From the NCBI GenBank assembly GCA_030706735.1, contig JAUZNZ010000001.1, positions 124,001 through 188,000 of the forward strand: DNA of 64,000 nt, read 5' to 3'. Shown here one piece after another: positions 13,469 to 30,106 of the stretch. Position 1 is the stretch's first letter. The number at the start of each line of letters is the position of its first letter. The notes under the pieces were generated by a model. The model made no database searches, was not told the DNA's origin, and saw only the letters and a list, made by a program, of their open reading frames with translations. This DNA comes from Bacteroidota bacterium (GTDB lineage Bacteria > Bacteroidota > Bacteroidia > Chitinophagales > Chitinophagaceae). Both the position numbers and the translations under genes were made by a program.

Positions 13469-14563
13469 ATGAAAATCGTACATGTGGTCGAACCCTTTGC
13501 GTCCGGGATTGCCGTTTTTGTCAAGTCTCTGGTCGAGAACCTGAGCAATGATCAGCATATCATCGTTCACGGGGAGCGGGAGTATGTTATGTCCTTTGCG
13601 GACGTCAAACAGCATTTCCCTAAAGACAATGTCCGGTTTATCAGGTGGAGGTCCGCCCAGCGGGAGATCAGCATCCGAAAGGATCTCATAGCCTTTCTGG
13701 AGCTATACACTATTTTAAAACGTCTGAAGAAGGGGCTGCATATTGACGCGGTTCATCTGCATTCCTCGAAGAGCGGCTTCCTCGGGAGGCTGGCCTGCCG
13801 GATCGCCAAGATCAAGACAGTAGTCTATACACCCAATGGTGCGCCCTTCCTTATAGGAAGCAACCGGCTTATCAATTACGTTTATAAACAATTGGAAAGA
13901 ATCGGCTCTCTGTTTGGAGGCAAGGTGGTCTGCTGCTCGCCGTCAGAAAGGGACGCCTATCAGGCCCTGGGCATCGACGCGCTTAATATTAACAACGGCG
14001 TCACGGTAACTGATCCGGCACCTGCCGTTCTCAAAACAATCGTATCTCCATCCAGGACGCAAAAGTTCAGGGTGGTTACGAGCGGACGGATCGTAGGACA
14101 AAAGAATCCTGCTCTCTTCAATTCCATTGCCGCTTATTTCAGTGATTTCGGTGATTTTGAATTCATTTGGGTTGGAGATGGCCCGGACCGCGGAACGTTA
14201 ACCGCCGGCAATATCGCGGTCACCGGCTGGTTGCCGGCCGAAGAAACCAGCTCACTGATCACTTCCTCGGACGTCTACCTGTCAACCGCAATCTTCGAAG
14301 GGATGTCTTTTGCCGTACTGGAAGCGTTGGCATTGAGAAAGCCGGTATTGCTCAGCGACTGCGTCGGCAACAGGGATATTGTGCAGAATGGTCTCAACGG
14401 AGACCTGTTCCGCAACGAAGAGGAAGCCACGCTGAAGATCCTGCAATATTATAATAACCGGGATATGCTCAATGTGATGGGTGAGTATTCCAGCGAGCTG
14501 TGCAGGCAGGAGTTCGATGTGCATTCGACCTTTACTGCCTATCGCGATCTGTACATGAGTTAA
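13469..14563 (+). CDS. Glycosyltransferase family 4 protein
   Basis: A 364-residue GT-B fold retaining glycosyltransferase. N-terminal Rossmann half: KIVHVVEPFASGIAVFVKSL, then VHLHSSKSGFLGRLACR and TPNGAPF. The C-terminal half has VVTSGRIVGQKNP, FIWVGDGPDRG, VTGWLPAEE and the family E-x7-E-like site STAIFEGMSFAVLEALALRKPVL. Resembles capsule and exopolysaccharide transferases acting in the cytoplasm at the membrane. Donor and acceptor cannot be inferred. Same-strand neighbours on both sides suggest an operon. Confidence 0.9.
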   Translation: MKIVHVVEPFASGIAVFVKSLVENLSNDQHIIVHGEREYVMSFADVKQHFPKDNVRFIRWRSAQREISIRKDLIAFLELYTILKRLKKGLHIDAVHLHSSKSGFLGRLACRIAKIKTVVYTPNGAPFLIGSNRLINYVYKQLERIGSLFGGKVVCCSPSERDAYQALGIDALNINNGVTVTDPAPAVLKTIVSPSRTQKFRVVTSGRIVGQKNPALFNSIAAYFSDFGDFEFIWVGDGPDRGTLTAGNIAVTGWLPAEETSSLITSSDVYLSTAIFEGMSFAVLEALALRKPVLLSDCVGNRDIVQNGLNGDLFRNEEEATLKILQYYNNRDMLNVMGEYSSELCRQEFDVHSTFTAYRDLYMS

Positions 14564-14613
14564 AACAGGACGTTATATATCCTATTATCGCAAACCTCAT
14601 AAATTTTGCCACA

Positions 14614-14973
14614 ATGCAGCGAGTCATCGACGCCAATATCAATGAGTCACGGGACATGCACTCCATTAATGACAAATTGGAGCAGATCAGTATTTACCTG
14701 GAACAGGAAATCACCTTCAAGCAACGGATCATCGAGGAACTGGAAGAAGAAGTAAACGGATTGAAGGCGATCTCCGAAGAAAAAAATGCATTGATCGGCA
14801 AGCTCGAAAACCAACTGTTGGAATGCCGTCAGACCCATGAAGGTACGCGGCAGTTGATCAATAAACTGCTAAACGATATCAGCAATTACCAAAAGGATAT
14901 AGATTGGTATAAGCGGACGTATGTCAGGAGGAGTCTGCCGGGCACCATCTGGCAAAAGCTGTTCCGGAAATAA
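14614..14973 (+). CDS. Small coiled-coil protein of the glycosyltransferase cluster
   Basis: A 119-residue protein, almost entirely heptad-patterned helix rich in Glu, Gln, Leu and Lys (about residues 15-90). It ends in an aromatic/basic segment, IDWYKRTYVRRS, then LPGTIWQKLFRK. No enzyme motif, signal peptide or full membrane segment. It lies between a GT4 and a three-domain glycosyltransferase, 20 bases before the latter. A similar design, coil followed by Trp/Tyr/Arg tail, recurs in two larger proteins of this locus, so a scaffold or membrane-tethering role is plausible. ATG 14614 is preceded by TAAATTTTG ending five bases upstream, a promoter-like sequence with one extra spacer base. Confidence 0.7.
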   Translation: MQRVIDANINESRDMHSINDKLEQISIYLEQEITFKQRIIEELEEEVNGLKAISEEKNALIGKLENQLLECRQTHEGTRQLINKLLNDISNYQKDIDWYKRTYVRRSLPGTIWQKLFRK

Positions 14974-14992
14974 AAGGCTTCTGGAACCATTC

Positions 14993-17900
14993 ATGAAATA
15001 TCGTTCAAATAAAAGATCAGTCACCTTTCGTCGCAAGTTTTTCGACTGGCTCTTGCAACTGGGCACAATAAAAAAAAAATATGTCCTGGCTTTCGTTTTG
15101 GAATCGGTCCGGGATCATGGCTTGTTTGCATGCTCACGGGAAATGATCCGTGCACTGAGGCAAAACGGAACAGCTGCATGGTTGCATCCACGCGGCATCG
15201 TGCTTTATAAAATGCATAACCGCGGAGGCAGCGCTCGATTACCAGTTCTTCCCCCGACTCCTGTGAACGATCCCCTGGCAGCCAGGGAGGGCGTGGAGCG
15301 ACTGACCTATCGTCCCCTGATTTCCATCATCCTGCCGGTGTACAACACTTCACCTGTTCTCCTGCAAGCAGCCGTCAACAGCGTGATCGGACAAATCTAT
15401 CCCCATTGGGAGCTATGTATTGCAGACGACCATTCCGGCGATCCCCGCGTGCGAAGGACACTGCAATTGTATGCAGGGGATCCGCGCATTCACATAGCGT
15501 GGCTGCCGGAAAATACCGGCATCTCGGAAGCATCCAACACCTGTATCGGCCTGTCCAAAGGTGAATTCATTGCATTGCTGGACCATGACGATGAGCTGAC
15601 GTCTGATGCCTTGTATTGGTTTGTCAATGAGTTGAATAAGGATCCGAAAGCAGATATCTTATATTCCGACGAATGCAAGGTCGACGAGCAGGGGAATCTC
15701 AGCCAATATTTCCTGAAGCCATCCTGGAGCCCGGAACTCTTGCTCAACAGCATGTATATCGGTCACCTGACCATGTACCGCAAAGCATTCCTCGTTGAAA
15801 AGGTCGGTCTGTTCCGGAAAACGTATGACCTTTCCCAGGACTACGACCTTGTCCTACGGGCTATGGAAAAAACGACGAGGATCAGGCATGTCAATAAGGT
15901 CCTCTACCACTGGCGGATCACAGAAGGATCTTCGTCGGCCGGTCATAAGCCCAATGCGCGCAAGACCAATCTGTCAGCCCTCGCGGACGCCATGCGCCGG
16001 CGTAACATCGAAGCGGACGTCCTTGAACTGCCGGCGGCCAACCGCGTGCGACTGCGAATCGATAAAAAACCCCTCGTTTCGATCATCATCCCGACCGATT
16101 CGCGCCAAAACCTGGATGCAGCACTGAAGAGCATTCATACCGTGACCGCTTATTCAGCATACGAGATCGTCGTGGTTGCCAATTCCGCACTCGTTTACGA
16201 TATACAAACCAATTATTCGTGGTCGAACCTGGTCTGTGCAGCGTACGATAAGCCTTATAATTTTTCTGACAAGTGCAATGCAGGGGCGGCCCGGGCAAAC
16301 GGCGATATCCTCATTTTCCTGAATGACGATGTCAGGCCCCTGGAATCCGGCTGGATCGATGATACCATCGAATATCTATTCCTTGCCGGCGTCGGCGGCG
16401 TCTCCCCGAAGCTGATCTATGAGAATGACACCCTGCAATATGCGGGCATGGCCGCCGGTGTACGGGGACTCACCGGAACGACGTTTCACGGCTACCAATG
16501 GGATTCCACGGCGTATCACCGCTTCCCTCAGCTGGTCCGCAACGTCTCGATCCTGTCAGGAGCTTGCCTGGCGATTAAGAAGGACCTGTTCTTCCGCCTG
16601 GGCGCATTCGATGCGGTAAATACCCCGAGCGCCCATTCCGATACCGACCTTTCATTCCGGTTGCTGGAAAACGGCTGGAGATGCGTTTACACCCCGTACG
16701 CCTCTCTCCGACATATCGGACACTTGTCCCTCAAGGATTACGAAAAAGGGCAGGAGCAACAACGCAAAGACAAATCATCCATTCATCTCCTTAGAAGGTG
16801 GTCGAAATACCTCACGGATGACCCTTATTTTCCCGCCACGATGAAAAATTTTCTCTACCATGATTCGCCTGAACCTTACAGATTGTACGCAGACGTACAG
16901 TACATGTCCGGGGAATATGAAAGAGACGTCCTGTTTGTCAGTCATGAACTTACCCTCACAGGCGCTCCCATCAGTCTGTTTGAACTGGCCAAACTATTGA
17001 AAGCCCGCGGATATTTCGTTGCCGTCTGTTCGCCTGTTGACGGCCCTTTGCGTCAAATGTATGTGCGTGAAGGAATGGTAGTTATTGTAGACGCTTTGTT
17101 ACTGAAGCGTCATGCGTCTGTACGTCACTTTGCCGCCCAATTCGACAAACTGATCTGCAATACGGTGGTCACCTGGCCAGTTGTCAGCCAAATGCAAAAT
17201 ATCCTACCTGTATTCTGGTGGCTCCAGGAGGGCAGATCGATACTCGATTTCGCTCAATACCGGGAATGCGCAATAACGATCCGGGAGGCGAAGGTGATCA
17301 TCGGGTTAAGTGAGTATGCCTTATCCTATATCAGGAAACTTAATAAACGCGCAGTTAAGATCTATAATGCTTGTCCCGATATTTCCCGGGCCGGGCAAGC
17401 CACCGATGCATGGGAGGCCATCGAGGCGGAGAGGGAAGGCACCATATTATTTAGCATGGTGGGTTCACTGGAGAAACGGAAAGGTCAGGATATTGTCCTT
17501 GATGCGCTGGACCATCTTGGTCCGGAAATTTTGAACAAGCTCGAAATCCTGTTCATCGGCAGGTTTCATGATCCCCTCTTTGCCGCCAAAGCCAGGCAAC
17601 GGGCGGGCGGGCGAAAATTCATCCGCTTCCTTGGCGAAGTCAGCAGGCATGAATGCCTGGAGTGGATGAGAAAGAGTCATGTCCTCTTGAATGCATCCAG
17701 GGACGAGCCGTTCTCCGTTGCGCTCACCGAAGCGTTTTGCCTCGCTAAACCTTGCGTGGTGCCCCAACAGGCGGGCATCGCCGAATTGATCACCGATGGA
17801 CAGAACGGTTTCACTTTCAGGCAGGCAGATGCGAAGCACCTGGCCGAGAAGATACACTTTGCTGTCACTCATACCGACTGCCTGAGAGCGGTTGGTATGG

Positions 17901-17998
17901 CAGCCAGAATGACATATGAAAAGCACTTAACCATGGAGCGATTCGAAAGTAAAATGATCAACTTGTTGGAAACCGGAGCTTTAAAACCGCAATCATGA
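14993..17998 (+). CDS. Three-domain glycosyltransferase (GT2-GT2-GT4)
   Basis: A 1001-residue cytoplasmic protein with three transferase modules. The first GT2 domain starts near residue 107 (PLISIILPVYNTSPVLL) with LLDHDDE near 194, ILYSDECKVDE and SQDYDLVLRA. The second GT2 domain starts near residue 358 (PLVSIIIPTDSRQNLDAAL) with FLNDDV near 441 and HSDTDLSFRLLENGW near 545. The GT4-like domain starts near residue 643 (VLFVSHELTLTGAPISL) with MVGSLEKRKGQDIVLDAL near 822 and NASRDEPFSVALTEAF near 900. The basic N-terminal 100 residues are unassigned. Multi-domain transferases of this type usually build repeat units with several linkages. The start ATG 14993 lies after the stop of the small coiled-coil gene. 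Its stop overlaps the next start in ATGA. Confidence 0.92.
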   Translation: MKYRSNKRSVTFRRKFFDWLLQLGTIKKKYVLAFVLESVRDHGLFACSREMIRALRQNGTAAWLHPRGIVLYKMHNRGGSARLPVLPPTPVNDPLAAREGVERLTYRPLISIILPVYNTSPVLLQAAVNSVIGQIYPHWELCIADDHSGDPRVRRTLQLYAGDPRIHIAWLPENTGISEASNTCIGLSKGEFIALLDHDDELTSDALYWFVNELNKDPKADILYSDECKVDEQGNLSQYFLKPSWSPELLLNSMYIGHLTMYRKAFLVEKVGLFRKTYDLSQDYDLVLRAMEKTTRIRHVNKVLYHWRITEGSSSAGHKPNARKTNLSALADAMRRRNIEADVLELPAANRVRLRIDKKPLVSIIIPTDSRQNLDAALKSIHTVTAYSAYEIVVVANSALVYDIQTNYSWSNLVCAAYDKPYNFSDKCNAGAARANGDILIFLNDDVRPLESGWIDDTIEYLFLAGVGGVSPKLIYENDTLQYAGMAAGVRGLTGTTFHGYQWDSTAYHRFPQLVRNVSILSGACLAIKKDLFFRLGAFDAVNTPSAHSDTDLSFRLLENGWRCVYTPYASLRHIGHLSLKDYEKGQEQQRKDKSSIHLLRRWSKYLTDDPYFPATMKNFLYHDSPEPYRLYADVQYMSGEYERDVLFVSHELTLTGAPISLFELAKLLKARGYFVAVCSPVDGPLRQMYVREGMVVIVDALLLKRHASVRHFAAQFDKLICNTVVTWPVVSQMQNILPVFWWLQEGRSILDFAQYRECAITIREAKVIIGLSEYALSYIRKLNKRAVKIYNACPDISRAGQATDAWEAIEAEREGTILFSMVGSLEKRKGQDIVLDALDHLGPEILNKLEILFIGRFHDPLFAAKARQRAGGRKFIRFLGEVSRHECLEWMRKSHVLLNASRDEPFSVALTEAFCLAKPCVVPQQAGIAELITDGQNGFTFRQADAKHLAEKIHFAVTHTDCLRAVGMAARMTYEKHLTMERFESKMINLLETGALKPQS

Positions 17999-18711
17999 GA
18001 AGTGACGGCGATCTCACCCTTATTTTGCACCTCTATTACCCGGGCTCATGGGAGACTGTCCGGTCGAAGTGTTCCTTCGTCCTCGGGCAGGCCACCCGAA
18101 CCATTATTACGGCCTGCCATGACGATGTGATCCAAGAAATTCAGCCACAGCCCAACATGGTCATCCTCAAAGTCACCAACAAAGGAAAGGATGTCGGGGG
18201 TAAGCTTGCGGCTCTTAGTTACTACCTTTGTTATTGCAAGAGGACAGAATATCTCGTCTTCCTCCATGATAAAATAAGTCCCCAGACGATCAATGCCGAT
18301 TATTGGATGGATACGTTATACCGGATCTTTGAACAGGAGGTATTCGAAAGGGCGATCCGTACATTGAAAAAATATAAAAGCGCAGGAATCGTCGGTTCCA
18401 GGCCATTCCTTAAGACAGAGTACCTGCCATCCGAACGGCGTTTCGACAGCACCAATGACAACGTGCTGAAGCAGTTGATCGACCGGCATGGCCTGAGATG
18501 CAAGGAGTTTCGCTTTATAGCAGGCACCATCTTTATCGCGAAGAGTCGAATCTATGAAGATTTCTTTACCCTGCATCCTCCGCTGGACGCCCGGCGGGAC
18601 CTTGAGGAGGAGAATGTGCTGGACCTTACCCTGGGCACATACACGCATTCCTGGGAAAGACTTTTTTGTTTTATCGCCGAAGATAGCGGCTACACTGTAA
18701 CAGGCATTTAA
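17995..18711 (+). CDS. Rhamnan-synthesis-F (RgpF)-like protein
   Basis: A 238-residue protein with the look of the RgpF family, linked to rhamnose-containing polysaccharide assembly. Visible: ILHLYYPGSWETV at the start, VTNKGKDVGGKLAAL near residues 61-75, EYLVFLHDKISPQ near 87-99, IVGSRPF, and FIAGTIFIAKSRIY near 172-185. The catalytic chemistry of this family is not well defined. The ATG overlaps the upstream stop by four bases (ATGA at 17995-17998), consistent with translational coupling to the three-domain glycosyltransferase. Confidence 0.75.
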   Translation: MRSDGDLTLILHLYYPGSWETVRSKCSFVLGQATRTIITACHDDVIQEIQPQPNMVILKVTNKGKDVGGKLAALSYYLCYCKRTEYLVFLHDKISPQTINADYWMDTLYRIFEQEVFERAIRTLKKYKSAGIVGSRPFLKTEYLPSERRFDSTNDNVLKQLIDRHGLRCKEFRFIAGTIFIAKSRIYEDFFTLHPPLDARRDLEEENVLDLTLGTYTHSWERLFCFIAEDSGYTVTGI

Positions 18712-18735: not shown

Positions 18736-19689
18736 ATGAAGAATTATGAGGAGTTCCTTTTGCCGATATTGATACTGGACCCCGGCGTACCGGTTCCAGA
18801 GGCCGCCGTCCAGCGACGAAGATGCGCCCTTGCCCTTGAAGTGAATTTGCGGGCCGGCAGATTCAACAAGCCGACGCTCGAATTCCTCATTACCGGGGAA
18901 ACGCCATTCCTGCTACTCGTTGACGATCTGCAAAGTGCCAATCAAACACTGATTAGTGAGCAGGTCCATGAATATCAGGTTCCGGAAAGTCACACCATAC
19001 GCCCCGAATTGGTGGAGCCTCTCGCTCTGGCACTGTTCAGCAGGAACTATATCCGGCACGAAGGCATTCCGGTTGTCGGCATTCGGCAGAGTGATATGGC
19101 CGATGTCGGGACCGTCAATCGAACGGCATCTTTTTTGATCTATTTGAACCAACAGGGATGGCCCGCCATTCAAACCTGGAGATTGTCCTCTTTATCCTTT
19201 AAAGAACAAGTCCTTTCCAAAACACCTCCGCCCCTTCTGCTTACCCGGATCGACTTTGACGAAAACTTCCTGGAGCGCGAGGTCTTTGTCAGGCGTGCAT
19301 ACGCCGGAAGTCATGTCTTTATAAAGGGCTCCGACAATCTCTCCTCCCTTGCGCTCGAAGAAGAGTTTTCGAAGCTTTGCGCGTCGATCATCGGCAGGGA
19401 CCCGCTGTACCGGCACTTTCTGTCGGGTTGGCTGTATGCCCGGAAGGAAGTTGAAAGATTGTCCGAGGAGGCGTCGGTACTGGAAGAGCGCTTACGCAAC
19501 GCGGAAATTACTATCAAAACGATCCGTACGAAATATAAAGAAGACTACGACGTGCTGTTCCGCTGGTACCAGGCGGAATATGAAGTCCTGCCTCTTTGGT
19601 ATAAGCGGTTCGGACACGTGATCAAAACGTTTATGGGCAAACGAACATTCAGGTCCTTGTTTCGCCGGGGACCGCAAAAACACATATAA
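18736..19689 (+). CDS. Protein of unknown function with C-terminal coiled coil and WY/basic tail
   Basis: A 317-residue protein without recognised enzymatic motifs. Residues 1-225 form a mixed alpha/beta region (PILILDPGVPVPEAAV at 9-24, FLLLVDDLQSANQTLI near 57-72). A coiled coil follows at about 235-272 (VERLSEEASVLEERL). The tail is strikingly aromatic and basic: LFRWYQAEYEVLPLWYKRF, then GKRTFRSLFRR. The tail resembles the end of the 119-residue coiled-coil protein at 14614. Position between the RgpF-like and the giant methyltransferase-glycosyltransferase genes argues for a structural or regulatory role in the same pathway. No function is assigned. Confidence 0.7.
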   Translation: MKNYEEFLLPILILDPGVPVPEAAVQRRRCALALEVNLRAGRFNKPTLEFLITGETPFLLLVDDLQSANQTLISEQVHEYQVPESHTIRPELVEPLALALFSRNYIRHEGIPVVGIRQSDMADVGTVNRTASFLIYLNQQGWPAIQTWRLSSLSFKEQVLSKTPPPLLLTRIDFDENFLEREVFVRRAYAGSHVFIKGSDNLSSLALEEEFSKLCASIIGRDPLYRHFLSGWLYARKEVERLSEEASVLEERLRNAEITIKTIRTKYKEDYDVLFRWYQAEYEVLPLWYKRFGHVIKTFMGKRTFRSLFRRGPQKHI

Positions 19690-19749: not shown

Positions 19750-22700
19750 ATGATCGAACAGAACCTTTTTGACAAACACTATTTCCTGACTTCCTGCGGG
19801 ATCCCCTATGACCAGAAAGACAAGTGGGAGGATTTTTTCGGAAGGATCGCAGACCGGATCATCCGTGATATCAACCCGGGAACTGTTCTTGATGCCGGAT
19901 GTGCCTATGGATATCTGGTGGCGGCGCTAAGAGATAGGGGCGTGACCGCCTACGGGATCGACATCTCGAATTATGCTATTTCCCAGGTGAGGGAAGATAT
20001 CCGCCCATATTGCAAGGTGGGTTCAATCGTCGATCCGCTGCCCATGCGGTACGACCTGGTCGTCTGCATCGAGGTCCTGGAACATATGACGCCCGATGAC
20101 GGCAGGAAGGCCATCGACAATCTCTGCCGTTTTACGGATGACTTCCTTTTTACTTCCACCCCGTTCGATTTTAAAGAGGCCACGCATTTTAATGTTCAAA
20201 ATACGGACTACTGGGTATCCCTCTTTGCCCAATCCACTTTCTTCCGTGACGTGGATTTCGACGCATCGTTCATTATTTCCCATGCGATACGGTTCAGAAA
20301 AGGCAAACGGTCAGTGACGGATGTCGCCAGGGAATATGAAAAGGCCTATTTCCGATATTACCTGGAAAGCAAGACGCTAAGGGAAGAGCTCGTCCGTGCG
20401 CGTACGGAGATATCGTCCAGGTTCAATGAAAATGAAAGCACTTTATTGGCTGAAAAGAACCTTATAATCAACGGCAAAGACAATCATATCGCCAATTTGG
20501 AGAAATCCATGCAGGACAGGGAGGAAAATATCAAGCGCCTTGCTGCCGCCGCGGCAGAGCAGGAGGCGCAGATCGTTACGCTGAACCAGACCATCGGAGA
20601 AAAGGAGGAGCTGCTGCAAAGAACAAAGGAGGAATTGCTGCGAGTCGATATCGAGCATCTTCGGGATCTGGAACAGCGCATGAGTTCCCTGCGTGAGATC
20701 ATAGAGGAGAAGGATGGCGAATTGAGAAGGTCGAAGGAGCGCGATACCGCGCGCCAGATAGAGCTTAATGTCCGGATGGAGGCGCTGAACAGGGAAAAAG
20801 AGGAGGCCATTGGGCGATTAGAAGGGCATATCCGGCAGATCGGCGAAAACGTCCGGTCCGTGGAAGAGTTGATCCGGTCAAAGGACACCCATGAGCTGAA
20901 TTTTAAGGAAGTCGTCGAAATAAATCAGGAACTGAAGAAAAAAATAAAAGGCCTGTATTTTATCAGGGAAGAGCACGAAAAGGCGATCCAGTCGATAAAG
21001 AACTCTTCGCACGAACTGAAGGCGGACCTGGACAGCCGTACGGTCCATTACGACGCCCTGATGCTGCAATACAAGGCGGCACACACAGAATTGGAAAGGA
21101 TCAGGCAGTTAAAGGGTTACAAATTGCTGTGGAAGTATTATTTACTCAGGGACAGGATCCTCGGGCGAAAAAAAGGTCGCCGGCCGGGTACGATTGGGAA
21201 TCAGGATCAGGTTGGTATCTCAACAATGTCAGACAATCAAGGCCAGCAAGGCCCATCTCTCCTGGAAAAAGAGATCGCCCACTATAGCCGGAACCCCATT
21301 TATGGCAGAACGCTGTCATTCAATCCGCTGATCAGCATAATCGTACCCGTGTTCAACACACCGCCGGGCGTCCTCGAAGAAATGATCAGATCGGTCACCG
21401 CCCAGACGTATCCTCACTTTGAGCTGCTGATCGTCAATGCGAGCGTGGATAACCCTGAACTGGGAAGACATGTTTCGCACCTGGCTTCCAAGGATCCCAG
21501 GATCCGGTATTCGACGACGGAAAATAAGGGCATTGCAGGCAACAGCAATGTGGCCATAGGAATGGCCACCGGCGAGTTCGTCGCCTTCCTGGACCATGAC
21601 GATACGCTTGCGCCACATGCCTTGTTCGAGGTCGTATCCAGGCTGCAGGACGATCCGATGGCATACGATTTTTTCTATTCCGATAAGGATATGATGCCGG
21701 AAAATGGGAAGACGAGCTGCAATCCGTTATATAAGCCTCAGTGGTCTCCGGAGATGATGCTGTCCGCCAATTATCTTACCCATTTCTGTGTAATCCGCAA
21801 ACGACTCATTGAAGAGTCCGGCATGTTGGACAGCAGGACGGACGGGGCGCAGGACTGGGATATTTTCCTGAGAGTGAGCCGGTTGACCTCCAAGATCGGT
21901 CACATTCCTCAGCGGTTGTACCACTGGCGGATCATCCAGACCTCGGTGGCCAGCGGGATCGGCGCCAAACCCTATGCCCTGGAAGCGCAGCTGACTTGCC
22001 TTCGAGCTCATTTCGAGGCGCTGAATTATCCCGCTACGATCAAATTCAACGATCGCGCCAATAGTATCCTGAAGGTCGATTGGCATGGCACGGAGAACAA
22101 AGTTGTTACTTTTATTATCCAGCATACGGGAACGTCGGATCAGCTCTTGTCCCTGCTTGAAAATATTGATCAGTTCCATAGGGGGTATGGGAACGCGATC
22201 GAATTGATCATCCTGAGCAAAACCAGTCTTCCCGGGGTCGTCAGTCAATCCTCCTACCATCCGGTACTCTTCCTCCGGGAAGCGGACAATGTCTATGTGG
22301 ATATCAACAAAGCCATCGAGAAGGCCGGCGGTGACATTTTCCTATTCTTAAACAGCGAGGTTGCCATCGCCGACAACCAAACAATTTTTGAGCTGATCAG
22401 CTGGGCTGCGCAGGATCAATATGGAATCATTGTGCCTAAGATCGTGGACAACAAGGATGTAATCGTCAGTGCCGGCATCGTGATCAATAATAATTGTATC
22501 CTGAATATGTTCCAGCATGTTCACTCCGGCCACTACACGATCTTCGGCCATACCGAATGGTACCGGAATGTCACTGCCGGCCGCCTGGAGTGCTTTGCCG
22601 TCAGATCCTCCCATTTCAGAATAGCAGGGGCCTTTGAGCCGGAGTTCGAAGAGTGTGCCTGTATCGAATTTTGCCTGCGTCTGCTTAAAACCGGGCACAG

Positions 22701-24126
22701 GCACGTATATAATCCCTTCGCAACCGTAACCGTTGCCAAACTTCCCGATATCGATGCGATAGCAGACAGGCACAGGTTGCTGCAGCTGCAGCAGATATAT
22801 AGCCTGCCGGCCTGCGATCCGTACTGGAACCCCAACCTAATGGCCAATCATACCATCCCCATGGAGAATCAACGAAAGGTTACGCCCGCGTCCCCGCGAG
22901 CGCTATCCGGACCGGTAGTTACGGGTTGGGAAAAGTATAGTTCCGACGCATTCTATCTGGCCCACGAATTCGATTTTTCGAAAACCGAATTTGAAAATAA
23001 CCTGAAGAACATCGGCAAGGAGGGCGGTCAAATCGAGATAAAGAGTGTCAACTGGATACTTCCTCATTTTGATTTCATTTATTACGCCGGGTTATACACC
23101 ATTTTCAGGCTGGCCAACTACCTTCAGTCGGTCGAAGGGGTCAGGAATACGATCATAACGGTCGGTGGGGGCGACGAAAGAGATCTGTACAATATCATCG
23201 TTGAGGCGTTCCCACTAATGAAAGGATGCAAAGTTCTCTGTCTTGCCAATACCTCGGATATCAAAAAGATCCCCTACGCCGACGCCAGCATCTGTTCCTT
23301 GTGGACAACGGCCTATTACCTGTTGCGGTTCAATAATACGAAAAGGAAATTTTACTTTATCCAGGATTATGAACCTTTGTTCTATCCGGCAGGATCGACC
23401 TACGGACAGACGGAGACTACGTACACATTCAGTTTTTATGGTATTGCCAACACCCGGGGACTGCGGGAACTGTACGAAGAGCAATACGGCGGAACTGCCA
23501 TTGACCTGAAGCCTTGCATTGACGGCAGCATCTTTTATCCTTCCAGGGCGCCCGCCGGTAAGGACATATTCAGGGTGTTCTTTTATGGTAGACCTGGTCA
23601 TCCGCGAAATGGATTCGAGCTGGGCGCCACGGCGTTGAAAATATTGAAATCACGCTGGAAAGAGAAAGTAGAGATCTACTGTGCAGGCTCGGACTGGGAC
23701 CCTGCCGAATACGGCCTGGCGGGGATCGTCACGAACATGGGACGCATGGACATGGAAAAGACCGGGGACCTATACCGGATTTGCCATGCCGGGTTGGTCA
23801 TGATGTTTACCAAACATCCCTCCTATCTTCCGTTTGAACTGATGGCATGCGGATGCGCAGTAGTGTCCAATTATAACAAGGACACGACCTGGTTCCTGAA
23901 GGATCACGAGAATTGCCTGCTGTCGGAGGCGAGTGCCACCAGGATCTCGGAGACGCTTGAAAAGGTCCTCACAGACGATGCCCTGCGTTCGCGGCTTACG
24001 AGCAACGCTTTGCGTAACATAAAGGAGGGGCATGCCGAGTGGGACGCCGAGCTGGGCAAGATCTACCGATTTATGTGCTCCCCCTCGACCGCCGTCGCAC
24101 GGGATCAACCTGAATTTTCACGATAA
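19750..24126 (+). CDS. Giant fusion: SAM methyltransferase, long coiled coil, GT2, GT2-like and WsaF-like GT4
   Basis: A 1458-residue single open frame. Residues 1-180: class I methyltransferase with motif I VLDAGCAYGYL near 45-55, AYGIDISNYAI and CIEVLEHMTPDDG. Residues about 200-460: a charged coiled coil of some 250 residues, ending with LLWKYYLLRDRILGRKKGRR near 460-480. Residues about 524-740: GT2 domain with PLISIIVPVFNTPPGVLEEM, FLDHDDT near 614, FFYSDKDM and GAQDWDIFLRVSRL. Residues about 755-1030: a degenerate second GT2-like domain (VVTFIIQHTGTSDQLL, DIFLFLNSEV). Residues about 1095-1450: GT4 domain resembling WsaF rhamnosyltransferases (VNWILPHFDFIYYAGLYTIF, FYFIQDYEPLFYPAGS, FFYGRPGHPRNGFELG). 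Cap, ruler and polymerase functions are inferred from this order. Confidence 0.9.
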   Translation: MIEQNLFDKHYFLTSCGIPYDQKDKWEDFFGRIADRIIRDINPGTVLDAGCAYGYLVAALRDRGVTAYGIDISNYAISQVREDIRPYCKVGSIVDPLPMRYDLVVCIEVLEHMTPDDGRKAIDNLCRFTDDFLFTSTPFDFKEATHFNVQNTDYWVSLFAQSTFFRDVDFDASFIISHAIRFRKGKRSVTDVAREYEKAYFRYYLESKTLREELVRARTEISSRFNENESTLLAEKNLIINGKDNHIANLEKSMQDREENIKRLAAAAAEQEAQIVTLNQTIGEKEELLQRTKEELLRVDIEHLRDLEQRMSSLREIIEEKDGELRRSKERDTARQIELNVRMEALNREKEEAIGRLEGHIRQIGENVRSVEELIRSKDTHELNFKEVVEINQELKKKIKGLYFIREEHEKAIQSIKNSSHELKADLDSRTVHYDALMLQYKAAHTELERIRQLKGYKLLWKYYLLRDRILGRKKGRRPGTIGNQDQVGISTMSDNQGQQGPSLLEKEIAHYSRNPIYGRTLSFNPLISIIVPVFNTPPGVLEEMIRSVTAQTYPHFELLIVNASVDNPELGRHVSHLASKDPRIRYSTTENKGIAGNSNVAIGMATGEFVAFLDHDDTLAPHALFEVVSRLQDDPMAYDFFYSDKDMMPENGKTSCNPLYKPQWSPEMMLSANYLTHFCVIRKRLIEESGMLDSRTDGAQDWDIFLRVSRLTSKIGHIPQRLYHWRIIQTSVASGIGAKPYALEAQLTCLRAHFEALNYPATIKFNDRANSILKVDWHGTENKVVTFIIQHTGTSDQLLSLLENIDQFHRGYGNAIELIILSKTSLPGVVSQSSYHPVLFLREADNVYVDINKAIEKAGGDIFLFLNSEVAIADNQTIFELISWAAQDQYGIIVPKIVDNKDVIVSAGIVINNNCILNMFQHVHSGHYTIFGHTEWYRNVTAGRLECFAVRSSHFRIAGAFEPEFEECACIEFCLRLLKTGHRHVYNPFATVTVAKLPDIDAIADRHRLLQLQQIYSLPACDPYWNPNLMANHTIPMENQRKVTPASPRALSGPVVTGWEKYSSDAFYLAHEFDFSKTEFENNLKNIGKEGGQIEIKSVNWILPHFDFIYYAGLYTIFRLANYLQSVEGVRNTIITVGGGDERDLYNIIVEAFPLMKGCKVLCLANTSDIKKIPYADASICSLWTTAYYLLRFNNTKRKFYFIQDYEPLFYPAGSTYGQTETTYTFSFYGIANTRGLRELYEEQYGGTAIDLKPCIDGSIFYPSRAPAGKDIFRVFFYGRPGHPRNGFELGATALKILKSRWKEKVEIYCAGSDWDPAEYGLAGIVTNMGRMDMEKTGDLYRICHAGLVMMFTKHPSYLPFELMACGCAVVSNYNKDTTWFLKDHENCLLSEASATRISETLEKVLTDDALRSRLTSNALRNIKEGHAEWDAELGKIYRFMCSPSTAVARDQPEFSR

Positions 24127-24137
24127 ACCGGACGCGT

Positions 24138-25043
24138 ATGAACGATTACCAATTGCTGTGTTGTCATGAGAACCCCCATAACGGCAGGGTGTATTTTGCA
24201 AAAAATAATCAACGGAGATGGATACCTTCCGGCGAGCACATGAAAGAGTATGGATTCGATTGGGACCTGGTGAAAACCTATGCTGCCGAACAGATAGCAT
24301 CATATGAACTGATGTCTCCCCTGCCCCATCCACGGCTTGAGTACAGGCCAGGGACCATGTCAGTCGGTGAAATTCGCGAATTTATCGGCAACCAGGTTTG
24401 CGGAAAAGGAGTTGAATTTGGCGCCGCCAGCAGTCCCTTCCCGACAGCCCTGGAAAGCCAGGTGGAATATGCCGACCTATTCGACCATTCACTCATAAGC
24501 AGCCCATATCATAACCACCATACATACGCCAGGCACGAATATGTTAAATGCAAGTACCTTACGGGCATGGAGGTCATGGTTGGCATACCCGACCGTTCAC
24601 TCGATTTTATTATCGCCAGCCACGTAATCGAGCACCTGAGAAATCCTTTGCAGGCCATGGAAACCGCCTGGACCAGGCTAAAGCCGGAAGGCAAGCTGGT
24701 ACTGATGGTGCCGCACAGGGATCTTACCTTCGACAAGAACCGGGATATAACGAGCCTGGAACATATCGTCCTGGACTACGAACGGCCTCTCAAAGAAAGG
24801 GACTTCATGCACTTCTACGACTTTTACGAAAATGCCTTCGTTGCACCTAATCCCTTTGAAAAGGCCGTGGAAATGTTCAATAGCGATGCAAGTGACATCC
24901 ATTATCATACCTGGAACGAAGGCAGCTTCCTGGAAATGGTGCAGTATTTTTCAGATCATATTAGAAAATGGTCGGACATCACCTATTATCCTCATCTGCC
25001 GAACGAACAGGCCAATGAATTCTATTTTATCCTTAAGAAATAA
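24138..25043 (+). CDS. Class I SAM-dependent methyltransferase
   Basis: A 301-residue protein. The methyltransferase core begins with motif I-like GKGVEFGAASSPFP near residues 94-107, continues with EYVKCKYLTGMEVMVG, then SLDFIIASHVIEHLRNPLQA near 155-175 and LKPEGKLVLMVPHRD near 180-194. C-terminal aromatic/acidic regions (HFYDFYENAF, YHTWNEGSFLEM) may shape substrate binding. A related domain order is seen in sugar or lipid-linked glycan methyltransferases of polysaccharide loci; the substrate here is unknown. It begins 11 bases after the giant fusion gene, so the operon encodes two separate methyltransferase activities. Confidence 0.85.
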   Translation: MNDYQLLCCHENPHNGRVYFAKNNQRRWIPSGEHMKEYGFDWDLVKTYAAEQIASYELMSPLPHPRLEYRPGTMSVGEIREFIGNQVCGKGVEFGAASSPFPTALESQVEYADLFDHSLISSPYHNHHTYARHEYVKCKYLTGMEVMVGIPDRSLDFIIASHVIEHLRNPLQAMETAWTRLKPEGKLVLMVPHRDLTFDKNRDITSLEHIVLDYERPLKERDFMHFYDFYENAFVAPNPFEKAVEMFNSDASDIHYHTWNEGSFLEMVQYFSDHIRKWSDITYYPHLPNEQANEFYFILKK

Positions 25044-25067: not shown

Positions 25068-27224
25068 TTGAACTACTGGCTATTGACGACGGAATATCCG
25101 CCATTTCACGGTGGAGGCATCAGCACGTATTGCTATTTCACGGCACGGATGTTTGCGGGACGTGGCGATGAGGTCTATGTTTTTGTGCCGGACGAAAAAG
25201 TTAGGGACTATCGTATCGAAGTCGATGAGCCCGGTCTTTCCGTCATCCGGTTCAATAGCAACCGGAATAATCCGGGCGATGCATTGGGCTATACGGCGCG
25301 TTTAAGCTATGCCTTTGCAGATATCGTCGGCAAGATCATCAGTGAAAAAGGCGCGCCGGACCTGATCGAAGCCCAGGATTACCTGGGCATTGCCTACTAT
25401 CTCACGCAATTCAAGCATTTGGGCTATGATCATCTCAAGAATATCCCCATCGCCATCACACTGCATTCGCCTGCCTTTCTGTACCTGGAATATAACAGGA
25501 CGCCGACCTTTCGGTTTCCCGATTTCTGGACTTGCGAGATGGAAAAGCAAAGTATCAGGGCAGCGGACCTGCTGTTGTCTCCAAGCCGTTTTTTGGCCGA
25601 CGAGATCACGAAATACATCGGCCTGCAGGGGAAACCCATAGAGGTATTGGCTAATCCCTATGCATCCGGAACCCCGCCAGGCAAACGAGCCTACGTTCCG
25701 AATAAGGTCGTCTATTACGGAAAACTATCTCCTCAAAAAGGCAGCTTTGAACTATTGGCCTATTTTCAACAATTATGGGAAAGCGGTTTCGAGCATAGCT
25801 TACACATTATCGGGGGGACGGATATTGTTTACCAACCGGAGATGCGGACCATGGGACAGATCATCCGGCAAAAATATGGCGCCTATATCCGCAAGGGCAT
25901 GCTTATCCTGCACGGAAAGATCAAACCCGCCAGCCTGAAAGACCATTTGTCGGACGCCCATGTCGTGGTATTTCCGAGTATTATCGACAACCTTCCGTAC
26001 GCCGTGATAGAGGCAATGGATCTGGGAAAAGTATTGCTGGTATCGAAACAGGGCGGGCAGATGGAAATGATCGAAGATGGGATCGACGGATTTTTATTCG
26101 ACCATGACGATCCGTTCTCATTCGGTAGCCGGTTACTGGAAATCCTTGCCCTTCCACAGGCAACCATCGAAAGCGTAGGAGAAAATGCCTTTCGTACCGT
26201 CGAACGGAAATATTCACCGGCTATGATCTATTCCCTGAAGCGGGAAATCCTGCTGAAGGCGATAGGGTCGGCGGAGAAGGGCAATATATTTCCATTTCTG
26301 CACCAGGAAAAGAATTCGATTTCAATTTCTCCGGCCCCCGGCAACCTTCTGTCGGTCGTCATCCCTTTCTACAATATGGGTTCTTACCTGCAAGAGTGCA
26401 TCCAGTCGATCTGGCAGTCAACTTATAAGGACTTGGAAATCATCATTGTCGATGATGGCAGCACCGACCCTGCCAGCTTGGACCAATTAGGCAAGCTGGA
26501 TCCCGATGACCGCCGGGTCAGGCTAATACACCAATCGAACACCGGGCTCGCTCATGCGAGAAATAACGGTGCAACGGCAGCGGCGGGGGCCTATCTTGCC
26601 TTTCTCGACGCCGACGATAAAATTGCTCCGTTATACTATGAAAGAGCGATCCGAGCGCTGCAAAAGAATGAAAATGTTTATTTCGTGGGGGCCTGGGCCC
26701 GATATTTTGAAAATAGCCGCGCCGTCTGGCCTGCTTTCACTCCACAACCTCCGTATGCCCTGGTTCACAACCCAATCAACAGCAGCAGCCTGGTCTATAA
26801 GCGCAATGCCTTTCTGGCCGCAGGCCTGAACGACCCAAAGGTCGGTTATGGTCTGGAAGACTACGACAGCGTAATCTCCATGATGGAGCAAGGGCTAAAT
26901 GGGGTCGTTTTGCCCGAGACCCTATTTTATTACCGGGTACGGAACGGCTCGATGTTCAGGGATATTTCCCGTGAAAAATTATTGTATTCGAATAAATACA
27001 TCGTGGAAAAGCATGCTGCCTACTACGCCAAATTCGCACCCCAGGTGATCAACCTGCTGAATGCAAACGGACCGGGATATTTGTTCGACAATCCAAGTCA
27101 TGGGGTGAACATTTCCGTCTCCTCCCAAAAGGATACGCGTTTGACGGCTAAGCTCAAGGACCTGGCCAGGCGGAATGAAAAAATAAAACGATTCCTCTTA
27201 ACCATTAAAAAAATGAAGAAATGA
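25068..27224 (+). CDS. Two-domain glycosyltransferase (GT4-GT2), TTG start
   Basis: A 718-residue protein. GT4 half at residues 1-400: YWLLTTEYPPFHGGGIST at 3-20, DLIEAQDYLGIAYYL, LLLSPSRFLADEI, VVYYGKLSPQKG, LHGKIKPASLKDHL and VVFPSIIDNLPYAVIEAM. GT2 half from about 426: LLSVVIPFYNMGSYLQECI, IIIVDDGSTDP, AFLDADD near 511, and GLEDYDSVISMMEQG. The C-terminus (about 692-718) is very basic and helical. The only in-frame candidate before the conserved N-terminus is TTG 25068; a stop lies upstream at 25041, so TTG is effectively forced. A six-codon frame starting at ATG 25051 stops with TGA overlapping this TTG. Its own stop overlaps the exporter gene in ATGA. Confidence 0.9.
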   Translation: MNYWLLTTEYPPFHGGGISTYCYFTARMFAGRGDEVYVFVPDEKVRDYRIEVDEPGLSVIRFNSNRNNPGDALGYTARLSYAFADIVGKIISEKGAPDLIEAQDYLGIAYYLTQFKHLGYDHLKNIPIAITLHSPAFLYLEYNRTPTFRFPDFWTCEMEKQSIRAADLLLSPSRFLADEITKYIGLQGKPIEVLANPYASGTPPGKRAYVPNKVVYYGKLSPQKGSFELLAYFQQLWESGFEHSLHIIGGTDIVYQPEMRTMGQIIRQKYGAYIRKGMLILHGKIKPASLKDHLSDAHVVVFPSIIDNLPYAVIEAMDLGKVLLVSKQGGQMEMIEDGIDGFLFDHDDPFSFGSRLLEILALPQATIESVGENAFRTVERKYSPAMIYSLKREILLKAIGSAEKGNIFPFLHQEKNSISISPAPGNLLSVVIPFYNMGSYLQECIQSIWQSTYKDLEIIIVDDGSTDPASLDQLGKLDPDDRRVRLIHQSNTGLAHARNNGATAAAGAYLAFLDADDKIAPLYYERAIRALQKNENVYFVGAWARYFENSRAVWPAFTPQPPYALVHNPINSSSLVYKRNAFLAAGLNDPKVGYGLEDYDSVISMMEQGLNGVVLPETLFYYRVRNGSMFRDISREKLLYSNKYIVEKHAAYYAKFAPQVINLLNANGPGYLFDNPSHGVNISVSSQKDTRLTAKLKDLARRNEKIKRFLLTIKKMKK

Positions 27225-28018
27225 GTGCCGGAATTCTGAAGGACTGGTCCCGAAGATCGAATAAATTCGAGCGATTATGGCTACTGGCCAAGATCGAATT
27301 CAAGCTGAGATATTACGAGAATAAGCTCGGCCTGCTCTGGGCCCTTATCAAACCGATAATGGACATAATCATTTATTATATTGTATTTCAGACCATTATC
27401 AAGCAAAATGTTCCTGCCTATGCGTCATACCTCTTCATCGGGTTCGTTTTCTGGAATTTCTTCGTCGAATCCACCAGCGGCACGATCCAGATATTGAACA
27501 CCAAGAAATACTTATATGAATACAGCAATATGAATAAGCTGGAAATTTATGTTTCCACCCTGTTTGCGAACAGCATCGGCTTTTTCTTTAATTTCGTTAT
27601 GTTCCTCCTTTTCTACAACCTGGTACAAAGCGCCGCTCCGGGCTTATCGATATATAATCTCTGGATAGTCCCGCTGTACGTGAATGTGTACCTATTGTCC
27701 CTGGGTGTTTCCCTTATCCTCTCGAATATTTATATCATTGCCAAGGATATCACGCAGGTGTGGGCGGTATTCGTATCTATGCTTTTCTTTTTGTCTCCGA
27801 TCATTTATAAGAAAGAAACATTCGAAGAGGCGCTACCCGGCTTCGATTATATCAACCCCGTCGCAGGCATTATCATCAATGCCAGAAAGGTCATGATGGA
27901 AAAGACGAATCCGGATTTACAGCTTCTGGCATTCGACTTTGTCCTGTCAGTAATTCTTGTGCTGGCGGGACTACTTCTATTAAACAGACTGGGGGCCAAG
28001 GCCGCTGAAAAACTTTAA
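27221..28018 (+). CDS. Wzm-like polysaccharide ABC exporter permease
   Basis: A 265-residue ABC-2 type integral membrane protein with about six hydrophobic segments. An amphipathic N-terminal helix (FERLWLLAKIEFKLRY) precedes LGLLWALIKPIMDIIIYY, the conserved start of the first membrane segment. Further spans include YLFIGFVFWNFFVE and LFFLSPIIYKKE. The family exports O-antigen, teichoic acid or capsule chains built in the cytoplasm. It overlaps the upstream glycosyltransferase by four bases and is followed two bases later by its ATPase partner. Confidence 0.92.
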   Translation: MSAGILKDWSRRSNKFERLWLLAKIEFKLRYYENKLGLLWALIKPIMDIIIYYIVFQTIIKQNVPAYASYLFIGFVFWNFFVESTSGTIQILNTKKYLYEYSNMNKLEIYVSTLFANSIGFFFNFVMFLLFYNLVQSAAPGLSIYNLWIVPLYVNVYLLSLGVSLILSNIYIIAKDITQVWAVFVSMLFFLSPIIYKKETFEEALPGFDYINPVAGIIINARKVMMEKTNPDLQLLAFDFVLSVILVLAGLLLLNRLGAKAAEKL

Positions 28019-28020: not shown

Positions 28021-28755
28021 ATGAACAACCCGATTGCCATCGAGGCAAAAAACATCAGTAAGACCTTTCATATAACTGAAGACAGTCACAATACGGTAAA
28101 GCACCGCTTATTCAACCTGTTCAATCCACCGCGGGCCAAGGAGGTCGAGGCCGTCAAAATGATGAATTTCGAAGTGAAACGAGGGGAATGCATCGGCTTG
28201 CTGGGACGCAATGGCTCAGGGAAGTCAACCCTGGTAAAATTATTGGCCGGCGTCTACCCATCAGACACGGGTTATATCAATATTTACGGCACCACCTTAT
28301 TAATGAACCTGGGCGTGGGCATGAGCCAGGAGCTGACGGCGAGGGAGAATATCTATGTCAGCGGATCAGTACTGGGATTAAAGATCAAAGAGATCGACGC
28401 CATTTTTGAAAATATCGTAGACTTTGCTGAGATACGGGAGTTTATTGATTCGAAGGTGAAGTATTTCTCTTCCGGAATGATGGCGAGGCTAGCTTTTTCC
28501 ATTGCCGTAAATGCCGGAGCCGATATCATGTTCCTGGACGAGATCTTTGCCGTTGGCGACATAAAGTTCCAGGAAAAGGCCATTAAAGTCTTCGAATCGA
28601 GCTGGATAGAAGGCAAGACGGTCATACTGGTCAGCCATAGCATGGAGGTGATCCGCAAGTACTGCATCCGGTCCGCGTTCATGAAACAAGGTCAGCTTGT
28701 TTACCTGGGCGATACGGAAACCGCCATCAATCTCTATCTCAAGGACAATGAATGA
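28021..28755 (+). CDS. Wzt-like polysaccharide ABC exporter ATPase
   Basis: A 244-residue nucleotide-binding subunit. Walker A GRNGSGKST near residues 62-70 (GLLGRNGSGKSTLVKLLAG), the polysaccharide-exporter-type segment LLMNLGVGMSQELTARENIY, signature-like YFSSGMMARLAFSIA near 149-163, Walker B DIMFLDEIFAVGD and the switch His in ILVSHSMEVI. It ends soon after the ATPase domain, so it lacks the C-terminal carbohydrate-binding domain of O9a-type Wzt that recognises a capped chain end. It belongs to the KpsT/TagH-length class. Translation is probably coupled to the permease (two-base gap). Confidence 0.93.
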   Translation: MNNPIAIEAKNISKTFHITEDSHNTVKHRLFNLFNPPRAKEVEAVKMMNFEVKRGECIGLLGRNGSGKSTLVKLLAGVYPSDTGYINIYGTTLLMNLGVGMSQELTARENIYVSGSVLGLKIKEIDAIFENIVDFAEIREFIDSKVKYFSSGMMARLAFSIAVNAGADIMFLDEIFAVGDIKFQEKAIKVFESSWIEGKTVILVSHSMEVIRKYCIRSAFMKQGQLVYLGDTETAINLYLKDNE

Positions 28756-28761: not shown

Positions 28762-30105
28762 TCAGCTTGCCGCCGGATGCCGCGTATAACGCCCGCGGGC
28801 AGCTTTGACGGATGAACGATACTCCCCATGGGATGCCGAAATAAAGCAAAAGAAGAACCCCGCCAACAGGCAGCCGATGCTCCGGTCGAAATAGCTCTCG
28901 GTTACCATGGACACGGCAAATGCCAGAGCCATCACCAGGCCTAATCCATCGCCCGCCCTATGGCAATTCCAGACGGGGAAGATCAGCCATCCCCCCAGGA
29001 ACAGAAGCAGGCCGATGATCCCAAAACAAGACAATACATCCAGATAGGTATTATGCATGTTCCTCACGGTGAGGAGTGCAAAGTCAAATCGCCTTGCCCG
29101 GTAAACATCCATCAATCGATCCTGCTTGTCCCCAAGCTGGACCCCCGCAAGCCAGTGGCGCTTCGCCAGGTCCCAGCCACAACGCCAAACTGCCAGCCTG
29201 ATATTGGCCCCATTCCATTGATCCGCGGTCACCGTCATATTATAGTGGCTCTCGATCCCATGACCGGTATAGCTGTAGCCGGTATATTGCAGTTCCTTGA
29301 ACCGATTCAGGGTTTTTGGGAAGACATTTATCAAGAGCATCACGCAGACCAGCAGGCCAAGGAGCAGTATGGCGCCCTGACGATATTTTCGCTTGCTGAC
29401 GATATCCCATGCCGCATAGATCAGCAGGCTGGAGTAAAGGATAATGATCGAAATACGGCTCGCGAGCATGAAATGAAACACAAGGAGGAACAGGATCCCT
29501 GCCCATGCCACCCGGGGATATTCTAATGTAAACGAAGTTCTTTGCAGAAGGTATGCGAGACTGAACAGGGCCAGGTTCACCAGTAGTGCGATATAGATCG
29601 ACTGTCGCCGGATGGCCAGGGTGAGGTTGTCATCGTAAAAATTCGATGCATCATGCGATCCGCGATATCGGGTATAGGCATTAGCCAGGCAGGCGAGTGC
29701 CATCAGGGCGGTCACCAGACCGAACATAAGCAGGGCCCGATCCTTTACTTCCTGCCTTATAAACAAGAGCCCGAGCGACAGGGGAAAAATCAGCAAGGGC
29801 AATCGCAGGACGAGCATGCGAACACCTTCCTGCTTGTTGAGCGAAAAGAAAGTGCTGACAATATGCAGGACATAAAAAAGAAGCATGAACCCGATCTCCC
29901 TGCGTTGCCTCAGATATTGCCATTTTTCAGCCAGCGTATTGTAAAAAAAACTGTGAAGTAGCACGGCGCCGGTGACGATATTATTCAAGACGGGCATATC
30001 AGGCAGGAACAGCGTGATGAACCAGCCTGCCATGAGAAAATAAAGTATCTTTTCCCTGACCGTAAAAGACTTGCCCGCCTGATCCAACAATAGCAGCTCT
30101 TTCAT
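28762..30105 (-). CDS. O-antigen ligase/polymerase-like membrane protein (copy 1)
   Basis: A 447-residue protein with some ten to twelve membrane spans, in the O-antigen ligase (WaaL)/polymerase (Wzy) superfamily. The large periplasmic loop near residues 270-370 contains TADQWNGANIRLAVWRCGWD, GDKQDRLMDVYR and RNMHNTYLDVL, with the conserved His-containing HNTYLD site typical of these enzymes. The first residues, MKELLLLDQAGKSF, match the start of the adjacent paralogue, which fixes the ATG at 30105. Role: joining or polymerising lipid-linked polysaccharide on the periplasmic side. It is read opposite to the exporter and ends six bases from the Wzt-like stop. Confidence 0.87.
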   Translation of the reverse strand: MKELLLLDQAGKSFTVREKILYFLMAGWFITLFLPDMPVLNNIVTGAVLLHSFFYNTLAEKWQYLRQRREIGFMLLFYVLHIVSTFFSLNKQEGVRMLVLRLPLLIFPLSLGLLFIRQEVKDRALLMFGLVTALMALACLANAYTRYRGSHDASNFYDDNLTLAIRRQSIYIALLVNLALFSLAYLLQRTSFTLEYPRVAWAGILFLLVFHFMLASRISIIILYSSLLIYAAWDIVSKRKYRQGAILLLGLLVCVMLLINVFPKTLNRFKELQYTGYSYTGHGIESHYNMTVTADQWNGANIRLAVWRCGWDLAKRHWLAGVQLGDKQDRLMDVYRARRFDFALLTVRNMHNTYLDVLSCFGIIGLLLFLGGWLIFPVWNCHRAGDGLGLVMALAFAVSMVTESYFDRSIGCLLAGFFFCFISASHGEYRSSVKAARGRYTRHPAAS

Positions 30106-30106
30106 A

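Follow-up and report, generated by a model that had tools for sequence, protein, structure and literature searches.

Can one polypeptide build, measure and cap a surface glycan when the exporter encoded beside it has no domain for reading the cap? The question is raised by P1458, a 1458-aa fusion protein encoded in the window, that is, the whole 64,000-nucleotide stretch of Bacteroidota DNA analysed here (Table 1). Its frame is uninterrupted, with a sole, terminal stop, and the domain order agrees throughout with the original prediction, which had read a methyltransferase at residues about 1-180, a coil of some 250 residues, a GT2 domain, a degenerate GT2-like domain and a C-terminal WsaF-like GT4. 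Pfam matches fall on the methyltransferase (residues 26-128), the first GT2 (529-688) and WsaF_C (1275-1403), and a WsaF_N match at 1194-1226 scores below the Pfam cut-off. Since two gut Bacillota loci, L038 (1404 aa, 42% identity) and L039 (1326 aa, 40%), share this domain order, P1458 is not an assembly error.

Table 1 Features of P1458 and its gene cluster, in window coordinates
Feature	Position	Strand	Basis
Bacterial sugar transferase that probably initiates on polyprenol phosphate	11422..12234	-	PF02397; NCBIfam relatives below cut-off
Small coiled-coil protein	14500..14973	+	Homologue comparison
Paralogous GT2-GT2-GT4 polymerase-like protein, 1025 aa, without methyltransferase	14921..17998	+	
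RgpF-like rhamnan synthesis protein	17995..18711	+	PF05045
317-aa protein, no recognised family	18736..19689	+	
P1458, whole ORF	19750..24126	+	ORF reading; same-order homologues L038, L039
Class I SAM methyltransferase with LDAGCAYG motif, residues 1-188; role in chain termination proposed	19750..20313	+	Pfam Methyltransf_23/11/25
Heptad-patterned long helical segment, proposed ruler, residues 189-455	20314..21114	+	Periodicity test, AlphaFold2, relatives
Basic, aromatic conserved tail GYKLLWKYYLLRD..., residues 456-480; may contact the membrane or a partner	21115..21189	+	Relatives' identity
First GT2 (GT-A) domain (GT2a), DHDD and QDWD intact, residues 526-790	21325..22119	+	
GT2-like domain with motifs lost (FLNSE; SD of GSDV[DE] gone), residues 791-1035	22120..22854	+	Motif alignment
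WsaF-like GT4 (GT-B), KHPSYLPFE motif at 1355-1363, residues 1060-1450	22927..24099	+	
Separate methyltransferase	24138..25043	+	
GT4-GT2 protein	25068..27224	+	
Wzm-type ABC-2 permease	27221..28018	+	
Wzt-type ATPase, 244 aa, without Wzt_C carbohydrate-binding domain	28021..28755	+	
O-antigen ligase-like protein (Wzy_C)	28762..30204	-	

The polymerase half combines intact-looking and degenerate domains. The motifs of GT2a look intact, and the WsaF-like part has the GT-B fold, most of the HPSYxPxE rhamnose signature and the donor and acceptor residues of WsaF (Q170, D171, E173, F176, R249, R254, H326, Y329 and E333 are kept; K302 is changed to R, P325 to K and Y308 to T). The second GT2 reads FLNSE where relatives read NND or NDD. 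Its SD acids are absent from all five aligned members of the P1458 architecture and kept in L042, L043, L044, L047 and the window's own paralogue, while the same-architecture relatives L038, L040 and L041 retain DAD at the first acid site. With these losses, P1458 departs from a WsaE-type arrangement of a methyltransferase and two GT2 domains with catalytic motifs. The polymer is probably a rhamnan; rml genes flank the homologues L078, L081 and L083, and RmlC is present in this genome.

At the other end of the chain, the methyltransferase is 53% identical to that of L038 and 46% to that of L039. It matches the WbdD methyltransferase weakly over residues 42-168 (profile E 1e-4), WbdD being just one of many methyltransferases matched. 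No kinase family was found on P1458 in the Pfam scan, and the predicted helix already starts at residue 189, so that a kinase would not fit between methyltransferase and coil. The family of the methyltransferase gives no substrate. The helical segment that follows has 267 residues, near the 250 first estimated, and zero proline; fully extended, it would measure about 400 Å. It is strongly patterned, and its 3.5-residue hydrophobic periodicity (24.3, against 11.1 ± 3.0 in shuffles) is reached by 0/500 shuffles, compared with 97/500 and 23/500 for two control stretches of P1458. AlphaFold2 predicts 250 of the 267 residues as helical, in three helices (189-227, 239-380 and 385-452), albeit with low to moderate confidence, the mean pLDDT being 57.8, and in a single-chain model of a kind that cannot show a coiled coil. 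Read together, domain order, periodicity and model separate the methyltransferase from the polymerase domains by an extended, possibly oligomeric coil; we propose that at this far end it acts as a terminator.

Relatives with altered coil length, which the original prediction had suggested seeking, do exist: the coils of the window, L038 and L039 have 267, 261 and 185 aa. Identity to the window's coil is 22% (L038) and 14% (L039), against 46-53% for the methyltransferase, GT2a and WsaF parts, and spans 14-24% among relatives; such low identity and variable length are expected of a spacer. The coils of L038, L039 and L041 contain internal repeats of 39, 14 and 21 aa, and in the partial coils of L040 and L041 the periodicity is reached by 66/500 and 12/500 shuffles. 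The adjoining tail is 46-54% identical across four relatives, with a net charge of +10 over residues 451-482; it may contact the membrane or a partner, and its hydrophobic moment is ordinary (76th percentile), so that it is not specially amphipathic.

What the far-end enzyme does may be approached by comparing 21 homologues that have two GT2 domains and a visible N-terminus, with the window counted in. The far-end enzyme is swapped between these relatives while the polymerase half stays: it is of the Methyltransf_23/11/12 type in six (the window, L038, L039, L078, L064 and L065), of the separate Methyltransf_24 family in L077, L079, L081 and L083, a GT2 in L042 and L047, and not recognised in nine. 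A single coil-like segment of at least 45 aa ahead of the first GT2 is present in 10/12 with a far-end enzyme and 0/9 without, at a threshold chosen after the numbers had been seen and with shuffles of the same regions at times scoring as high. The exceptions are L081, with no clear coil, and L064, with just 37 + 29 aa, broken. This comparison supports the proposed terminator role. Within the genus, the methyltransferase sits on the neighbouring polymerase chain in L064 and L065, and a methyltransferase-coil forms a separate chain in L072, in line with such a role; counting against it, FkbM is the only methyltransferase in the three proteins scanned in L073, and none was found in the two scanned in L063.

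The surrounding cluster encodes an ABC exporter. It also holds a second polymerase-like chain and a second methyltransferase, so that P1458 may share polymerisation or capping with other proteins. The small coiled-coil protein is found at the same position in L063, L064, L065, L072 and L073, all five of the related cluster stretches long enough to include it; for the 317-aa protein, homology spans most of the length in L064 and L065 and the tail only in L072 and L063. The cap-reading domain Wzt_C (PF14524) is absent from the cluster's Wzt, and the genome's sole Wzt_C match at E<=0.1 lies on another contig, C43. All terminated O-polysaccharide examples have Wzt_C on the transporter, according to PMC11231755, which counts against the model favoured below. 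Proteins of the P1458 kind are already known; their combination with an exporter that has no usual cap sensor is unusual.

We favour, at roughly 55%, a model in which P1458 is a fused WsaE/WsaF-like polymerase-terminator with a coiled-coil ruler and a methyl-ether cap, served by ABC export without cap-gated quality control. Near the membrane, GT2a and the WsaF-like GT4 would lengthen a lipid-linked chain, for which dTDP-L-rhamnose is the probable donor; the second GT2 would act mainly as a scaffold. Once a chain is long enough to meet the methyltransferase at the coil's far end, its non-reducing end would be O-methylated and its growth would stop, and capped chains would exit through Wzm/Wzt. 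Because this transporter has no cap-reading module, we propose that length is set by termination rather than by gated export; that the fused polymerase alone fixes length is a possibility we raise tentatively. If true, length control would be split from the transporter quality check, two functions that the cited papers treat as one mechanism.

The same exporter also fits a different account, in which terminal methylation is a surface epitope only, some ends being capped in the manner of Vibrio cholerae O1 Ogawa. Length would depend on how synthesis and export are balanced, as in Klebsiella O1/O2, and the coil would be a scaffold or membrane spacer. In PMC10629545, the V. cholerae O1 transporter is described as having no CBM, Ogawa methylation as not needed for export, and length control in Klebsiella O1/O2 as not coupled to export; WsaE methylation in vitro is reported to be independent of length (PMC2943079). 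However, in the passages compared, neither system is described with a far-end enzyme on the long coil of a polymerase chain, and the coincidence of coil and far-end enzyme among the 21 homologues also speaks against this account, which we judge unlikely though by no means negligible.

O-methyl sugars also occur inside glycans, so the methyltransferase could instead decorate internal sugars during polymerisation, one per repeat, its family being silent on substrate and the separate methyltransferase downstream being able to do the capping. A 267-aa spacer would nevertheless keep the enzyme well away from the end being extended in each cycle, the far end can be a GT2, and the far-end modules characterised so far, as reviewed in PMC11231755, are terminators; we give this reading little weight. 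As a third alternative, the 1025-aa paralogue, whose second GT2 keeps DxD-type and SD acids, might make the backbone, P1458 adding a second, methyl-capped block or being a recent, partly used insertion. In L064 and L065 the 317-aa homologue and the GT4-GT2 gene have no P1458 between them, and among 395 sampled genomes of its own phylum only this one has a match at E<=1e-60; yet the gene's GC content (0.511) is like that of its neighbours and little or nothing is lost from the motifs of GT2a and GT4. We judge this alternative highly improbable.

For the favoured polymerase-terminator, the original prediction drew its parallel with E. coli O9a. The placing of cap, ruler and polymerase in one molecule is supported by homology and relatives; the O9a likeness is not, as P1458 has no recognised kinase and, with no cap reader on the neighbouring Wzt, the export-coupled half of that mechanism is missing. 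The O9a and O8 WbdD proteins share with P1458 a methyltransferase on a coiled-coil ruler and have no polymerase domains, while O9a WbdD carries a kinase and its transporter a CBM (PMC3482155, PMC5082667). Since no kinase is seen, the proper comparison is O8-type WbdD, described as a simple methyltransferase (PMC3482155), or WsaE, not the O9a methylphosphate. Geobacillus stearothermophilus WsaE joins two GT domains to a methyltransferase presumed to form the cap; this domain was found to methylate α1,3-linked rhamnose, taken as 2-O-methyl cap formation (PMC2943079). Its partner rhamnosyltransferase WsaF is a separate protein, fused in P1458 (PMC2943079, PMC3898925), and WsaE, compared here by description, has three active domains, whereas P1458 has lost acids in its second GT2.

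Single-chain joining, set out in the original prediction as a contrast to the separate WbdD and WbdA, is also no novelty, having been published for Klebsiella O12 WbbB and O7 ORF6 (PMC11231755). In that account, WbbB of K. pneumoniae O12 and Raoultella terrigena unites a terminator, two polymerising GTs and a coil ruler, but its terminator is a β-Kdo transferase rather than the methyltransferase proposed here, and its transporter has the cap-reading CBM that the window's Wzt lacks. K. pneumoniae O7 ORF6 resembles P1458 in its N-terminal methyltransferase, coil and C-terminal GT2 modules on a single chain, its rhamnose donor, probably the same in P1458, and its ABC export (PMC11231755); it differs in that a kinase and a CBM-like domain separate its methyltransferase from its coil, where in P1458 the helix follows directly, and P1458 is additionally fused to a WsaF-like GT4. 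The P1458 family provides naturally occurring variants both in coil length and in the kind of far-end enzyme, in a locus where ruler and export gate seem uncoupled, so that their roles could be tested separately. P1458 extends the single-chain polymerase-terminators to a methyltransferase/GT2/WsaF fusion, found in MAGs of gut Bacillota and in the present, apparently Bacteroidota, genome.

The 1,458-residue chain P1458 was predicted to be a single uninterrupted frame running from a methyltransferase through a coiled coil to a GT2, a second GT2-like and a WsaF-like GT4 domain, and the frame is indeed open across all 1458 codons. Pfam models confirm the N-terminal methyltransferase (residues 26-128), the GT2 domain (529-688) and the WsaF-like part (WsaF_C, 1275-1403), with WsaF_N at 1194-1226 below cut-off. 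The middle (residues 189-455) contains no proline, and its hydrophobic period of 3.5 residues scores 24.3 vs 11.1 ± 3.0 for shuffled sequence, a value reached by 0/500 shuffles; the periodicity of two control stretches of P1458 was reached by 97/500 and 23/500. An AlphaFold2 model of residues 1-518 (5 sequences; mean pLDDT 57.8) places 250 of these 267 residues in helix, which is consistent with the predicted coil of about 250 residues in extent but would interrupt it at 228-238 and 381-384.

Features of the window and related loci (L handles, loci in other genomes or plasmid records) by coordinates
Location	Strand	Feature
Window 14500-14973		Small protein with a coiled coil; its tail, WYKRTYxxRSLxG, is shared with related clusters and with the methyltransferase-coil protein of L072
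Window 14921-17998	+	GT2-GT2-GT4 polymerase-like chain (paralogue)
Window 18736-19689		317 aa, matching no recognised family; a helix and an aromatic-basic tail at the C-terminus; L064 and L065 homologues 35-37% identical
Window 19750-24126	+	P1458
Window 28021-28755		Wzt (transporter ATPase), 244 aa
Window 28762-31420	-	Two tandem, overlapping O-antigen-ligase-like ORFs; second resembles same homologues as first; Pfam scan covered the first
L038:7720-9231		Wzm (permease), ~500 aa; ~200 extra N-terminal residues ahead of ABC-2 domain, judged beta-rich by eye, which may form an outward-facing part that binds sugar
L039:7744-9240		As L038
L042:1976-3565		Wzt, 530 aa; extension weakly matches methyltransferases (below cut-off), in place of usual CBM
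L047:8384-9985		As L042, 534 aa
L064:6553-11418		After methyltransferase, conserved region with kinase-like motif (DLTPxNILI, FDQEW), unrecognised by any library, fused to coil and polymerase
L065:6673-11820		As L064

A scan of genome contigs for relatives of P1458 returned 26 loci, and the complete order on one chain was found in an Oscillospiraceae MAG (L038) and a Butyricicoccus MAG (L039); contig ends cut L040 and L041 before or within the methyltransferase. Identity to P1458 in L038 and L039, respectively, is 53% and 46% for the methyltransferase, 22% and 14% for the coil, 54% and 46% for the basic/aromatic tail (residues 456-480), 51% and 49% for the first GT2, 27% and 25% for the second and 51% and 53% for the WsaF part. 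The search for homologues of altered coil length was successful, with 261 (L038) and 185 (L039) vs 267 residues, and repeat units measure 39 aa in the L038 coil, 14 aa in that of L039 and 21 aa in that of L041. Rhizobium rhododendri (L077) also carries methyltransferase, coil, GT2, second GT2 and WsaF on one chain, its methyltransferase belonging to another family (Methyltransf_24). Within the window's own phylum, taken as Bacteroidota because the transporter shares 68-76% identity with its Rufibacter counterpart (L063), a match at E<=1e-60 was found in 1/395 sampled genomes, the window's own.

Judged from family assignments, the far-end enzyme is swapped among two-GT2 homologues. The non-random comparison set comprises 21 such chains with a visible N-terminus: P1458 and its paralogue, eight from the contig scan (two of L038, the second chain of L040, and L039, L042, L043, L044 and L047), L064, L065, L066, and eight from plasmid records, hand-picked among the best 25 of 507. 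A far-end enzyme was recognised in 12, being of Methyltransf_23/11/12 type in P1458, L038, L039, L078, L064 and L065, Methyltransf_24 in L077, L079, L081 and L083, and a GT2 in L042 and L047; none was recognised in the other nine (L043, L044, L080, L082, L084, L066, the paralogue, and the 585-aa chains of L038 and L040). Ahead of the first GT2, a coil-like stretch of no fewer than 45 residues in one piece, a threshold set after the numbers were seen, is present in 10/12 chains with the enzyme vs 0/9 without (9/10 and 0/5 in a smaller set, whose enlargement left the weighing of the readings as it was), and similar coil totals are attainable by shuffles of the same regions. The two exceptions are L081, without such a segment, and L064, where 37 and 29 residues are split by a one-residue break. 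When periodicity was tested directly, 0/300 shuffles reached P1458, L038 or L039, 2/300 reached L047, 12/300 L077, and 18/300 each of L042 and L078; the contig-cut coils of L040 and L041 were reached by 66/500 and 12/500.

A close Wzm occurs in 8/33 same-genus genomes, the window's own included. The cluster centre is present in four stretches from the seven others (L064, L065, L072, L073) and cut in three (L074, L075, L076); cluster ends are conserved and the middle is variable. In L064 and L065 a methyltransferase heads a GT2-GT2-GT4 chain of 1622 or 1716 aa, homologous to the window's paralogue, which lacks one. There the homologue of the 317-aa protein is followed by GT4-GT2, whereas in the window P1458 and a 301-aa methyltransferase intervene. 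L072 encodes a separate 466-aa protein of methyltransferase and predicted coil. Taken together, P1458, the long chains and the L072 protein place methyltransferase-coil units on different chains at this locus. Among the proteins scanned, the unit was not seen in every same-genus cluster; in L073, the three proteins scanned include one methyltransferase, of FkbM type.

Terminal methylation might instead be a surface epitope only, with chain length set by the balance of synthesis and export. The main reason for considering this is that the window Wzt lacks Wzt_C, the cap-reading carbohydrate-binding domain (CBM), together with the Ogawa precedent, in which, according to an excerpt of PMC10629545, the transporter has no CBM and terminal methylation is dispensable for export. 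The genome's sole Wzt_C match lies in a different cluster on another contig (C43), and scans found none in the Wzt of L038, L039, L043, L044, L064, L065, L072, L073, L075, L076, L078 and L079; those of L063 (255 aa) and L074 (244 aa) are classed likewise by length alone, and those of L042 and L047 carry C-terminal extensions of ~285 aa without Wzt_C. According to an excerpt of PMC11231755, a CBM is attached to the ATPase in every example of a terminated O-polysaccharide. Wzt_C is present in L049, L050 and L083, the last a methyltransferase-coil-GT2-GT2 locus. The wider family therefore occurs with and without the cap-reading domain.

Terminator, ruler and polymerase on one chain have already been published for WbbB and O7 ORF6 (PMC11231755, excerpt), and WsaE combines three activities (PMC2943079, excerpt). 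The original prediction of cap, ruler and polymerase as one molecule stands in its domain order, for a design that was already known. No description of a methyltransferase-coil-GT2-GT2-WsaF chain was found in searches of an open-access library and, since the one-chain principle is published, P1458 appears to be a variation on an established architecture. Facts on WbdD are drawn from an excerpt of PMC3482155; for this protein the excerpt of a review (PMC5082667) gives ~200 Å. The P1458 middle, computed as a straight helix at 1.5 Å per residue, would span ~400 Å.
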